64,000 nt of DNA from an uncultured Cytophagales bacterium (GTDB lineage: Bacteria; Bacteroidota; Bacteroidia; Cytophagales; Thermonemataceae), in NCBI GenBank assembly GCA_937911505.1, contig CALEMF010000047.1, forward strand, positions 1-64,000, written 5' to 3'. Positions within the stretch are counted from its first letter, which is position 1. Each line of letters starts with the position of its first letter. The translations under genes and the position numbers were made by a program. Below are positions 2,810-33,845 of this stretch, piece after piece. The notes below the pieces were generated by a model, which saw only the letters and a list, made by a program, of their open reading frames with translations, was not told the DNA's origin and made no database searches.

Positions 2810-4054
2810 GTGACACAAAACACCCCTCAAATACATATCATAGGTGCTGGAATAAGTGGCCTGATTGCTGCGCAAGTACTAGAGCAACAGGGCTACGCCC
2901 CCACCATCATAGAAGCTACAAATCGAGCAGGAGGACGCGTAAAAACAGACTCAGTAGAAGGCTATCAACTAGATCGTGGTTTTCAGGTATTACTTACTGC
3001 CTATCCTTACGCGAAAAAATACCTTGATTTTGAAGCACTATCCCTACAGCCATTTTTACCTGGTGCGGTTATTTTTCGTAATGGAAAACAGATTACCATC
3101 GGCGATCCATTGCGTAAGCTTTCACTGTTATTTCCCACGCTGTTTGCTAAAGTGGGTAACTTTTCAGACAAGTTGCGCATTTTACGATTGAACAACGCGC
3201 TGAAAACGAAATCCTTAGAGGAGATTTTTACCACACCAGAGACTACTACACAGCAATACTTAGAAGAAAAAGGCTTTTCAGCCCCCATGATTACTGATTT
3301 TTTCAAGCCCTTTTATAGTGGTATTTTCCTAGAGACCGCTTTGGCTACATCGAGTCGTATGTTTGAGTTTGTGTACAAAATGTTTGGGAGTGGCTATGCA
3401 GCCCTGCCCAAAGCAGGCATCGAGGCGATCAGCCAGCAGTTGGTGAGTCGCCTGCAAAAAACTACTTTTCTATTCAATACACGGGTAGAAAAAGTAGAAG
3501 AGGGGCGTATCATTTGTGAAGGGGATAAAATAATCGAAAGTGATTATACAGTCATTGCTACTGCACCCCACAAGCTGCTTCCACAAGCTACTTCAAAAAA
3601 AATTGCTTGGAAGCGCTGCGATGCACTGTACTTTGAGATCAATCAGCGAAATATTCAACCGCCTATCATTGGTTTAGTGGCTGATAAGGAGGCACTGATT
3701 AATAATGTCTTCTACCATACAAGCCTTGCTATGGCAACAAAGGGAGGGAAAGAATTACTATCCGTAACGGTAGTAAAGCCTCATACATTACCTCTAACCG
3801 ATCTCATTAAAAAAGTAGAAGAAGAACTGGCACACTATTGTAATATAAAAGGAGGGAGGTTCATCAAGCACTATGCAATCGAGCAAGCACTTCCACAGCT
3901 AGAGGGCTTACAAAATGCGCTTCAGCCAGGCGCTACCCAACAGACCGAAACGATCTTTCTAGCGGGCGACTACCTACTCAACGCTTCGCTAAACGCAGCC
4001 ATGGTGGCTGGAGAACAAGCGGCGTTGGATATAGTAGCTACATTAAAAAAATAG
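2810..4054 (+). CDS. FAD-dependent amine oxidase/desaturase-like oxidoreductase
   Basis: A 414-residue flavoprotein starting with GTG. The N-terminal Rossmann motif is clear (IIGAGISGLIAAQVLEQQGY, with GxGxxG at about 12-17), followed by the acidic end of strand 2 (IIEATNRAGGRVKT) that contacts the FAD ribose and pyrophosphate. The C-terminal FAD-closing motif is LAGDYLLNASLNAAMVAGEQAA. This is the architecture of the amine oxidase/protoporphyrinogen oxidase/phytoene desaturase superfamily; length and overall look fit the NAD(P)-binding oxidoreductases often annotated as protoporphyrinogen oxidase-like. No haem or carotenoid genes lie next to it, so the substrate is open. It is monocistronic as far as can be seen: 92 bases after the hydrolase and followed by a non-coding region. 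Confidence 0.8.
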   Translation: MTQNTPQIHIIGAGISGLIAAQVLEQQGYAPTIIEATNRAGGRVKTDSVEGYQLDRGFQVLLTAYPYAKKYLDFEALSLQPFLPGAVIFRNGKQITIGDPLRKLSLLFPTLFAKVGNFSDKLRILRLNNALKTKSLEEIFTTPETTTQQYLEEKGFSAPMITDFFKPFYSGIFLETALATSSRMFEFVYKMFGSGYAALPKAGIEAISQQLVSRLQKTTFLFNTRVEKVEEGRIICEGDKIIESDYTVIATAPHKLLPQATSKKIAWKRCDALYFEINQRNIQPPIIGLVADKEALINNVFYHTSLAMATKGGKELLSVTVVKPHTLPLTDLIKKVEEELAHYCNIKGGRFIKHYAIEQALPQLEGLQNALQPGATQQTETIFLAGDYLLNASLNAAMVAGEQAALDIVATLKK

Positions 4055-4995: not shown

Positions 4996-5030
4996 AACCT
5001 TGCGGGTTTTTAAAACCTGTAAGGTTTTTT
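4996..5030 (+). terminator. Intrinsic terminator after lipoprotein paralogue 1
   Basis: AACCTTGCGGGTTTT (4996-5010) pairs with AAAACCTGTAAGGTT (5012-5026) over 15 bp, the two non-Watson-Crick positions being wobble pairs, followed by TTTT. A near-identical hairpin follows the second paralogue. Confidence 0.85.
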
Positions 5031-31960: not shown

Positions 31961-31996
31961 TAAAAGCCCTGTTGGTAGCTACCAACAGGGCTTTTA
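31961..31996. terminator. 36-base perfect palindrome between secDF and aceB
   Basis: An 18-bp inverted repeat with no intervening bases (arm: TAAAAGCCCTGTTGGTAG), flanked by A and T runs. It lies between two convergent genes and can terminate transcription from both sides. Confidence 0.88.
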
Positions 31997-32028: not shown

Positions 32029-33624
32029 TTACGAAAGGTGCTCGTAAGCAGGAAGCGTAAGGAACTCCTCAAAGGCTTCATCGTTGACCAATTGATTGAA
32101 AAGCTGAGCAGCTTTTTCCAAGTTACCCGTCTGTACACGTTCTGTACCTAGTAGCGCCCTGATTTTTGCGAGTTCTTCTTCAAGAAGTTGGTTGTACAAG
32201 GTAGCGTCTAAAGTGCGACCATCTGCCAAGGTTACCCCTTTTTTGAGCCACTGCCATACTTGTGCGCGAGAAATTTCTGCGGTAGCGGCATCCTCCATCA
32301 AATTGTACAGCGCAGCAGCACCCACTCCGTGTAGCCAAGATTCGATGTACAAAATACCTACGTTAATATTCATCCTTACACCCGCTTCCGTGATTTCCCC
32401 GCCTTCTATTTGGAAGTTACGAAGGTCTTCAGCCGTTACGGTAAGGTCTTCACGCATCACTTCTTTCTGATGTACTTTCCCTTGTAGTACGTCATTGAAA
32501 GCTTCCATCGCCACAGGAACCAAATCGGGATGGGCTACCCAAGTACCATCGTAGCCTGTACGTGCTTCCAGCTCTTTATCAGCTTTTACTTTGGCAAAAG
32601 CATTTTTATTTACTTCTTCATCCTTTCTACTTGGAATGAAAGCAGACATACCGCCAATGGCGTGTGCACCTCTTCTGTGGCAAACCTTTACCAGCATTTG
32701 CGCATAAGCACGCATAAAAGGAACGGTCATCGTTACTTGTCCTCGGTCAGGAAATACCACTTCGTGGTTTCTAAACTTCTTAATAGCGCTGAAAATATAA
32801 TCCCATCTACCTGCATTGAGGCCAGCGAGGTGTTCTTTAAGCTCATAAATGATCTCTTCCATCTCATAAGCCCCTAAGATCGTTTCTATCAAGACCGTTA
32901 CTTTGATAGTACCCACAGGTATGCCTAGCTTTTGCTGAGCCTCTTTAAAAACATCGTTCCAGAGGCGTGCTTCCTGATGGCTTTCTAGTTTAGGAAGGTA
33001 AAAATAAGGGCCAGAACCTTTTTCTATTAAGGTCTTGGCGTTGTGAAAAAAGTAGAGCCCAAAGTCGAAGAGGGAAGCAGAGATAGGAGCACCATCTACC
33101 AGCATATGTTTTTCTACCAAGTGCCAACCACGAGGGCGTACTTTTAGGACAGCCGTTTGTGCTTTGAGGGCATATTGCTTCCCATTATCAGCGGTAAAGT
33201 CAACTTGTCGGCGTATGGCATCTCTTAGATTGATCTGCCCTTCTACGCAGTTTTCCCAAGTAGGCGCGTTCGCATCTTCAAAGTCGGCCATAAATACTTT
33301 TGCGCCAGAGTTAAGGGCATTGATCACCATTTTTCGGTCTACAGGCCCTGTAATTTCCGCGCGACGGTCTTGTAAATCTTCAGGGATAGGATTTACTTGC
33401 CAATCGCCTTCTCTTACAGAGGCCATTTCGGGTAGGAAAGTAGGCATCTCTCCTTGATTAATACGTTGGAAACGTGCTGTTCTTTCTTCTAATAGCGAGA
33501 GACGTGTAGGATTAAATTTCCTGTGTAGGTCAGCGACAAACTGTAGCGCCTCAGGGGTGAGAATTTCTTCGTAAGCAGGTGTAAGCGTACCCTTTATATT
33601 GATACCGTTGGTTATAGAACTCAT
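32029..33624 (-). CDS. aceB: Malate synthase A
   Basis: A 531-residue enzyme condensing glyoxylate with acetyl-CoA to malate, the second step of the glyoxylate shunt used for growth on acetate and fatty acids. Family blocks: [12 protein letters not shown] near residue 36, [13 protein letters not shown] (metal/glyoxylate region, about 112-124), [62 protein letters not shown] and E-S-W-L-H-G-V-G. Length and motifs fit isoform A. The partner isocitrate lyase is not next to it. Its promoter overlaps a 14-bp palindrome shared with the divergent ScfR-type regulator. Confidence 0.97.
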
Positions 33625-33715
33625 GAAGGTTTAATTTTGAAAGTTTATGAATGATTGAATCGTCAATAAATTGATAATAGCGTTAATGGCCACAGGGTTT
33701 TGTTTTCTGTATAAT

Positions 33716-33746
33716 CAAATTTATTGTGGCGAAAAGGATATATCAA
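33716..33746 (-). promoter_or_regulatory. Promoter of aceB
   Basis: On the minus strand: TTG at 33746-33744, a 20-base spacer, TAAATTTG at 33723-33716. This is a full match to the Bacteroidota consensus and lies 92 bases before the aceB ATG. The -33 TTG overlaps the first bases of the palindrome at 33746-33759. Confidence 0.65.
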
Positions 33747-33759
33747 GCGAAATTTCGCT
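33746..33759. promoter_or_regulatory. 14-bp palindromic operator candidate between aceB and its regulator
   Basis: AGCGAAATTTCGCT is a perfect palindrome touching the -33 of aceB on one strand and the first base of a -7-like TAAATTTG (33759-33766) of the regulator gene on the other. Its half-site resembles the A-rich/TTTGC sites bound by RamB-type regulators of acetate metabolism. A repressor bound here could control both genes. Confidence 0.55.
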
Positions 33760-33845
33760 AAATTTGTATTTGGGGGTAAAAATCTTAGCTAAGTACAAGG
33801 AAAAGATTGTAATATCCAACTTACTCATTTTTTAATTGCTCATGG

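Follow-up and report, generated by a model that had tools for sequence, protein, structure and literature searches.

A conserved palindrome at glyoxylate-shunt promoters of Bacteroidota as candidate operator of a divergent ScfR/IsaR-type regulator

In an uncultured Cytophagales bacterium, the gene for malate synthase A (aceB) is divergent from a gene for a helix-turn-helix regulator, and a perfect palindrome lies in the gap between the two. Is this palindrome an operator and, if so, which protein would bind it and which genes would it serve? A first-pass annotation had proposed that the regulator is of the RamB/ScfR class, that a RamB-like logic of glyoxylate control extends to Bacteroidota, and that one operator acts on both genes. 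Here we follow these proposals from the locus to the genome, to relatives across the phylum and to the predicted structure of the regulator.

The palindrome at the aceB and aceA promoters

The window (the whole 64 kb stretch of DNA analysed) contains three perfect palindromes of at least 14 bp. Among them is AGCGAAATTTCGCT, an exact 14-bp palindrome lying exactly where the first-pass annotation had placed it (Table 1). As that annotation had also claimed, the palindrome touches the TTG of a consensus-like aceB promoter: its last T on the aceB strand is the first T of the TTG, and 20 nt further on lies TAAATTTG. The consensus described for the Bacteroidota housekeeping sigma factor is TTTG near −33 and TAnnTTTG near −7 (PMC7366714), and the predicted aceB promoter follows this sigma-ABfr pattern, though with CTTG in place of TTTG; TTG, spacer and box together make a good putative promoter of this type. 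Read along the aceB strand, the order is AGCGAAATTTCGCTTG, a spacer with an additional TTTTCGC, and then TAAATTTG. Elsewhere in the window, a perfect 36-bp palindrome, TAAAAGCCCTGTTGGTAGCTACCAACAGGGCTTTTA (31961–31996), lies between the convergent ends of a secDF-like gene and aceB, and looks like a two-way terminator.

Table 1 Features of the aceB–regulator locus, in window coordinates
Feature	Position	Strand	Remarks
aceB, malate synthase A	32029..33624	-	TIGR01344, 801 bits vs cutoff 594.5
TAAATTTG, putative -7 element of aceB	33716..33723	-	TAnnTTTG conserved at comparable distance in relatives
Outer half-site TTCGC	33729..33733	-	inside the aceB -33/-7 spacer, 18 bp from inner TTCGC
TTG, putative -33 element of aceB	33744..33746	-	G at third base in 66% of 67 sites
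Inner palindrome AGCGAAATTTCGCT	33746..33759	.	candidate core operator, half-sites GCGAA / TTCGC
TAAATTTG, regulator side	33759..33766	+	overlaps palindrome; not conserved on that side
Divergent ScfR/IsaR-type regulator, 486 aa	33846..35306	+	HTH_3, IrrE-like/GAF-like core, C361 + C449-x2-C452-x4-C457

Within the 5.0 Mb genome, the exact palindrome occurs twice, where 0.02 copies would be expected from the base composition of the window. One copy is that in the aceB/regulator gap; the second is found some 105 bp upstream of the isocitrate lyase gene, aceA (NF011645, 759.6 bits), where the layout seen at aceB is repeated, including the spacer half-site and TATATTTG. Both outer half-sites are present at aceA, whereas aceB has just the downstream one. 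When a single mismatch to the motif AGCGAANNTTCGCT was admitted, six places were found genome-wide, all six of them within open reading frames. A scan in front of aceA, acs and prp genes had been suggested at the outset: it recovered the exact palindrome upstream of aceA, while across the whole genome no exact copy precedes acs or prp genes, the aceB and aceA copies being the only two.

Conservation across Bacteroidota and the ownership of the site

We compared the locus in three sets of sequences: 59 genomes comprising the window's own and its relatives, in which AGCGAANNTTCGCT was defined; 198 genomes of the class, three of which (G000, G019 and G036) are aceB- and regulator-bearing genomes shared with the first sample; and 80 named regulator loci of Bacteroidota, of which 34 have and 45 lack a divergent aceB (79 of 80, L178 having been dropped because the regulator start lies off the contig). 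Among the 59 genomes, a full-length regulator was found in 24 (37 if short HTH matches are counted too), aceB in 22 and aceA in 23. Nineteen genomes combine the regulator with a shunt gene, five have the regulator only, four a shunt gene only, and 31 lack both (Fisher p 2e-7, uncorrected for relatedness; since the sampled genomes are related, such p-values overstate independence). By the family labels of the genome samples, the positive set covers about 21 families.

The site follows the same division. When the 500 bp upstream of aceB were searched for AGCGAANNTTCGCT, the closest match had 0–1 mismatch in all 18 regulator genomes of the 59-genome set, and four or five mismatches in all four aceB genomes that lack the regulator; one of these four (G001) belongs to the same family as the window organism. 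The site also accompanies stand-alone aceA genes (G000, G003, G005, G006 and G007, in the last of which the palindrome lies 90 nt upstream), and is absent from aceA genes downstream of aceB. Genome-wide, AGCGAANNTTCGCTTG has 17 matches in 16 of the 59 genomes, every one a regulator carrier, and the reversed control has none. Not every match belongs to a shunt gene: no target gene was identified beside the one in G017. In G025, which has the regulator and no aceA or aceB match, AGCGAAAATTCGCTTG precedes a gltB-like gene for the large subunit of glutamate synthase (L081:1500-1700), possibly a switched target.

In the class sample, the regulator was found in 36 genomes, aceB in 46 and both in 34, and a site with at most one mismatch precedes aceB in 33 of these 34. 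The exception, G146, has an aceB match of merely 31% identity, with five mismatches at aceB and four at the regulator; a second aceB match in G143, on contig C35, is likewise without a site (4 mismatches). Twelve genomes have aceB without the regulator; of the 11 compared (G239, with a broken aceB fragment, was left out), none has the site, the nearest being G208 with two mismatches. Combining both samples, AGCGAANNTTCGCT with at most one mismatch precedes aceB in 48/49 genomes with the regulator vs 0/15 without it, so the comparison with related genomes proposed by the first-pass annotation came out in favour of conservation. Among the named loci, GCGAANNTTCGC is present in the gap in 34/34 cases with a divergent aceB within 700 bp, at a density of 38 copies over 10,053 bp of gap sequence vs one in 357,761 bp of surroundings, this lone copy lying before pckA. 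Palindromes of 14 bp are not rare, as the three in the window illustrate, and the site might have been a chance or non-regulatory element, for instance a structural one; set against its genome-wide specificity and its conservation in distant relatives, where a match with at most one mismatch has a chance of about 0.1% per 500 bp, this explanation has a negligible probability. The palindrome is almost certainly a functional operator.

Alignment of 67 non-redundant sites (from 86), with shuffles as background, was then used to define its anatomy. GCGAA-NN-TTCGC is near-invariant. A TAnnTTTG box starts 15–25 nt after the palindrome in 48/67 sites (shuffle mean 0.7, max 4), most commonly at 22 nt (29/67). 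Outside the palindrome, a GCRAA lies 17–18 bp before the inner GCGAA in 28/67 sites (shuffle mean 0.08) and a TTYGC 17–18 bp after the inner TTCGC in 41/67 (shuffle mean 0.2), at mirror positions about the inner palindrome; both are present in 20 sites and neither in 18. Such a symmetric array of four half-sites, about 47 bp long, would suit a tetramer or a pair of dimers.

On the regulator side, the arrangement is looser. Over 53 sites, anything from 2 to 422 nt separates the palindrome from the regulator start, whereas its spacing towards the aceB promoter hardly varies; a TAnnTTTG no more than 25 nt away on the side facing the regulator is found in 4/53 sites, which is background (shuffle mean 1.4, max 5). 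In the 59-genome set, 14 regulators lie apart from aceB and 11 of them lack the palindrome in the 400 bp upstream, as 34/45 regulators without divergent aceB in the named set lack a site of at most one mismatch over the same distance. Because the regulator-side distance varies, the regulator-side box is at background and most detached regulators have no site, the palindrome is primarily an element of aceB and aceA promoters.

These observations bear on the proposal that aceB and the regulator gene are repressed from a single operator. In its favour, the window palindrome overlaps the TAAATTTG before the regulator, and in some lineages (G059, G196) it is found at the regulator promoter without aceB; against it stand the unconserved spacing and promoter box on the regulator side and the detached regulators without a site. 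As a general rule the shared operator is therefore doubtful, and we rejected it as such on geometry. The first-pass annotation located the regulator-side TAAATTTG correctly, but its reading as a regulator promoter did not hold up: −33 and −7 elements are spaced 17–23 nt apart, no TTG lies at that distance upstream on the + strand, and the box is not conserved there. This TAAATTTG is probably an operator flank. Control of the regulator's own gene through a shared operator is possible in the window species, and autoregulation is likely in certain lineages only, such as the Saprospiraceae-type loci, where the palindrome lies 2–25 nt before the regulator start and twice 10 nt before a TAnnTTTG.

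Could the site belong to another transcription factor, the neighbouring regulator being a bystander? That most detached regulators have no site upstream of themselves would fit this. The presence of the regulator, however, predicts the site (48/49 vs 0/15), and the site is still found beside the regulator where the neighbour is pckA (L027, L165) or an unrelated gene (L166, L168, L173, L175, L180); GCRAA also recurs inside the TTTGC(A/G)AA sites described for the related PrpR and RamB (PMC6765138). Conversely, aceB keeps the palindrome in nine genomes in which the regulator lies elsewhere (G003, G005, G006, G010, G021, G030, G037, G040 and G099). By these comparisons the site tracks the presence of the regulator, not its position, and a foreign owner is improbable.

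Some regulators fall outside this pattern. Many, including loci of Runella, Dyadobacter and Emticicia (within L101–L180), have neither a neighbouring shunt gene nor an upstream palindrome and, because so many lack an adjoining aceB or a nearby site, part of the family may have other targets. In L022 (with its palindrome at 3139) and L171 (upstream of the regulator at 4998), a full aceB-style promoter, palindrome included, stands before the regulator but is followed by no ORF; in L022 a terminator-like hairpin lies about 150 nt further on. These elements, and similar ones in L012/L101, may be relict aceB promoters or mark an unannotated small RNA. As for pckA, the palindrome is present without mismatch in 3/30 upstream regions (G036, G050, G051; 30 loci of the 42 genomes with a pckA match) and is absent before pckA in the window genome, so that pckA was rejected as a regular target. 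Since the palindrome precedes pckA in the named loci L027, L165 and L110, in two of which pckA is divergent from the regulator, gluconeogenesis may nevertheless join the regulon in some lineages.

The regulator and its known relatives

The regulator opens with a Cro/C1-type HTH (PF01381, 53.7 bits, cutoff 23), and Cys361, Cys449, Cys452 and Cys457 are invariant in 19/19 regulator sequences. When its AlphaFold2 model (pLDDT 75.7) was searched with Foldseek, Mycobacterium tuberculosis PrpR was the best match (E 8.8e-10). Compared with the PrpR structure 6cyj, the model superimposes over 293 residues with a Z of 23.3, an rmsd of 3.8 and 16% identity (structural alignment to PrpR gives 16–18%), and the next family reaches a Z of 14.5. 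A full-length regulator profile searched against PDB sequences gave matches confined to the HTH part. To place the CoA-stacking Phe240 and His319 of PrpR on the regulator, a profile alignment to 6d2s was used; it was weak (E 0.19), and no correspondence of these residues is claimed.

The Pfam model of the ScfR C-terminal domain, PF09856, gives the window regulator 12.9 bits, below its gathering score of 24 (a threshold of the model, not a functional feature); among the 19 relatives, 13 match at E ≤1, the best at E 0.00099. Because the score falls under the gathering threshold, we label the regulator divergent ScfR-type; by cysteine motif and predicted fold, it is a divergent member of the ScfR/IsaR type. 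The class proposed by the first-pass annotation is therefore retained for the ScfR kind, on fold and cysteine motif, and not for RamB itself: the NCBIfam RamB equivalog model NF038139 scores 48.1 bits against a curated cutoff of 700, and RamB orthology was rejected.

Three characterised proteins offer a comparison. M. tuberculosis PrpR (MccR/IsaR; PDB 6CYJ/6CYY/6CZ6/6D2S), by far the closest in predicted fold, coordinates a [4Fe4S] cluster through Cys363, Cys447, Cys450 and Cys455, and its CoA is locked in a tetramer (PMC6765138). The C-X2-C-X4-C spacing and single upstream cysteine are those of the window regulator, and GC(A/G)AA half-sites occur within the PrpR site (PMC6765138). PrpR differs in being an activator of the methylcitrate cycle, in its low identity, and in half-sites that overlap as TTTGCAAA, whereas those of Bacteroidota face each other as GCGAA-NN-TTCGC. 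RamB of Corynebacterium glutamicum (ScfR class 1), also an HTH regulator of acetate metabolism, represses aceA and aceB through a 13-bp operator, AA/GAACTTTGCAAA (PMC4448153); the RamB model detects the window regulator weakly, far under its cutoff. Allowing up to three mismatches, the window shows no enrichment of this operator, with 80 matches against 83.7 expected, and the matches in the aceB–regulator intergenic region, at 33635 and 33780, have three mismatches each, a background level at which we rejected a C. glutamicum RamB site at the locus. RamB of Paracoccus denitrificans (ScfR class 2) resembles the window regulator in gene arrangement. As described in PMC10370305, it is divergent from the malate synthase–isocitrate lyase genes (ms-icl), which it activates in control of the glyoxylate cycle, and it has a predicted PrpR-like fold, an Fe-S cluster, CoA-ester binding and a two-part site. 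It comes, however, from an Alphaproteobacterium, and its site, compared by description, consists of two near-identical boxes, set 18 bp apart and located 82 bp upstream of ms, while the Bacteroidota site is an inner inverted repeat with symmetric outer half-sites on a Bacteroidota promoter.

A proposed switch for the glyoxylate shunt

Taken together, the sequence comparisons and the structural model make it highly probable that the palindrome is the core operator of the divergent ScfR/IsaR-type regulator, controlling the glyoxylate shunt (aceB and, in trans, aceA) here and in much of Bacteroidota, probably by repression as a tetramer or dimer of dimers that acyl-CoA would relieve. What is observed is the site, its near-exclusive location at aceB and aceA, its co-occurrence with the regulator, its fixed placement relative to the promoter of aceB, and outer half-sites in a symmetric arrangement. 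Of the RamB-like logic first proposed for Bacteroidota, the association of the palindrome with shunt genes and with genomes that carry the regulator was upheld, and the control itself is predicted. A regulator bound as a tetramer or dimer of dimers to the inner palindrome and outer half-sites would cover the −33 region and spacer and thereby deny RNA polymerase access to aceB and aceA. The signal would be an acyl-CoA, either acetyl-CoA or one of its derivatives, sensed in a PrpR-like pocket beside a [4Fe4S] cluster; its build-up during growth on acetate or fatty acids would cause the regulator to leave or rearrange.

Repression is suggested by geometry. Occlusion is favoured because half-sites sit in the −33/−7 spacer (41/67 sites), because in G006 and G037 a TAnnTTTG-like box of aceB adjoins the palindrome directly or almost so, and because the palindrome lies 2–25 nt before the start codon at several regulator genes. 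Since Paracoccus RamB activates its shunt operon (PMC10370305), the sign of control could be reversed, and the main rival to a repressor is the same regulator on the same operator acting as an activator that, from just upstream of −33, recruits RNA polymerase when acyl-CoA is present. The Paracoccus protein activates ms-icl from a divergent position (PMC10370305), and the inner palindrome occupies a place used by activators. The outer half-site within the spacer speaks against this, however, as do the abutting arrangements in G006 and G037 and the position of the Saprospiraceae-type palindrome within the regulator promoter region; we regard activation as unlikely, if still to be reckoned with, and retain repression as the preferred reading.

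A literature search that covered few subscription journals, with the original ScfR classification outside its coverage, found no description of glyoxylate-shunt control in Bacteroidota, nor, within the same journals, of the Bacteroidota regulator branch, its operator sequence or the symmetric four-half-site layout. The kind of regulator is already known; the Bacteroidota branch, its operator and the layout appear to be new. In its widest form, which we put forward tentatively and hold to be somewhat short of an even chance, the proposal is that much of Bacteroidota has an uncharacterised branch of Fe-S acyl-CoA regulators, binding as a tetramer to GCRAA, about 12 bp, AGCGAA-NN-TTCGCT, about 12 bp, TTYGC over a sigma-ABfr promoter, which would place the glyoxylate shunt and, in certain lineages, pckA under the joint control of acyl-CoA and iron status. 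If this is true, neither the operator nor the mode of repression has a described counterpart in RamB or PrpR. The findings extend the range of Fe-S/acyl-CoA regulators, known from Actinobacteria and Alphaproteobacteria, by a candidate branch in a further phylum, one that has a promoter type of its own. They supply a candidate regulator, a precisely delimited operator and a forecast of the genomes that rely on it, which puts the question within reach of simple binding assays, and the symmetric outer half-sites may offer a way to test how tetrameric regulators read DNA.
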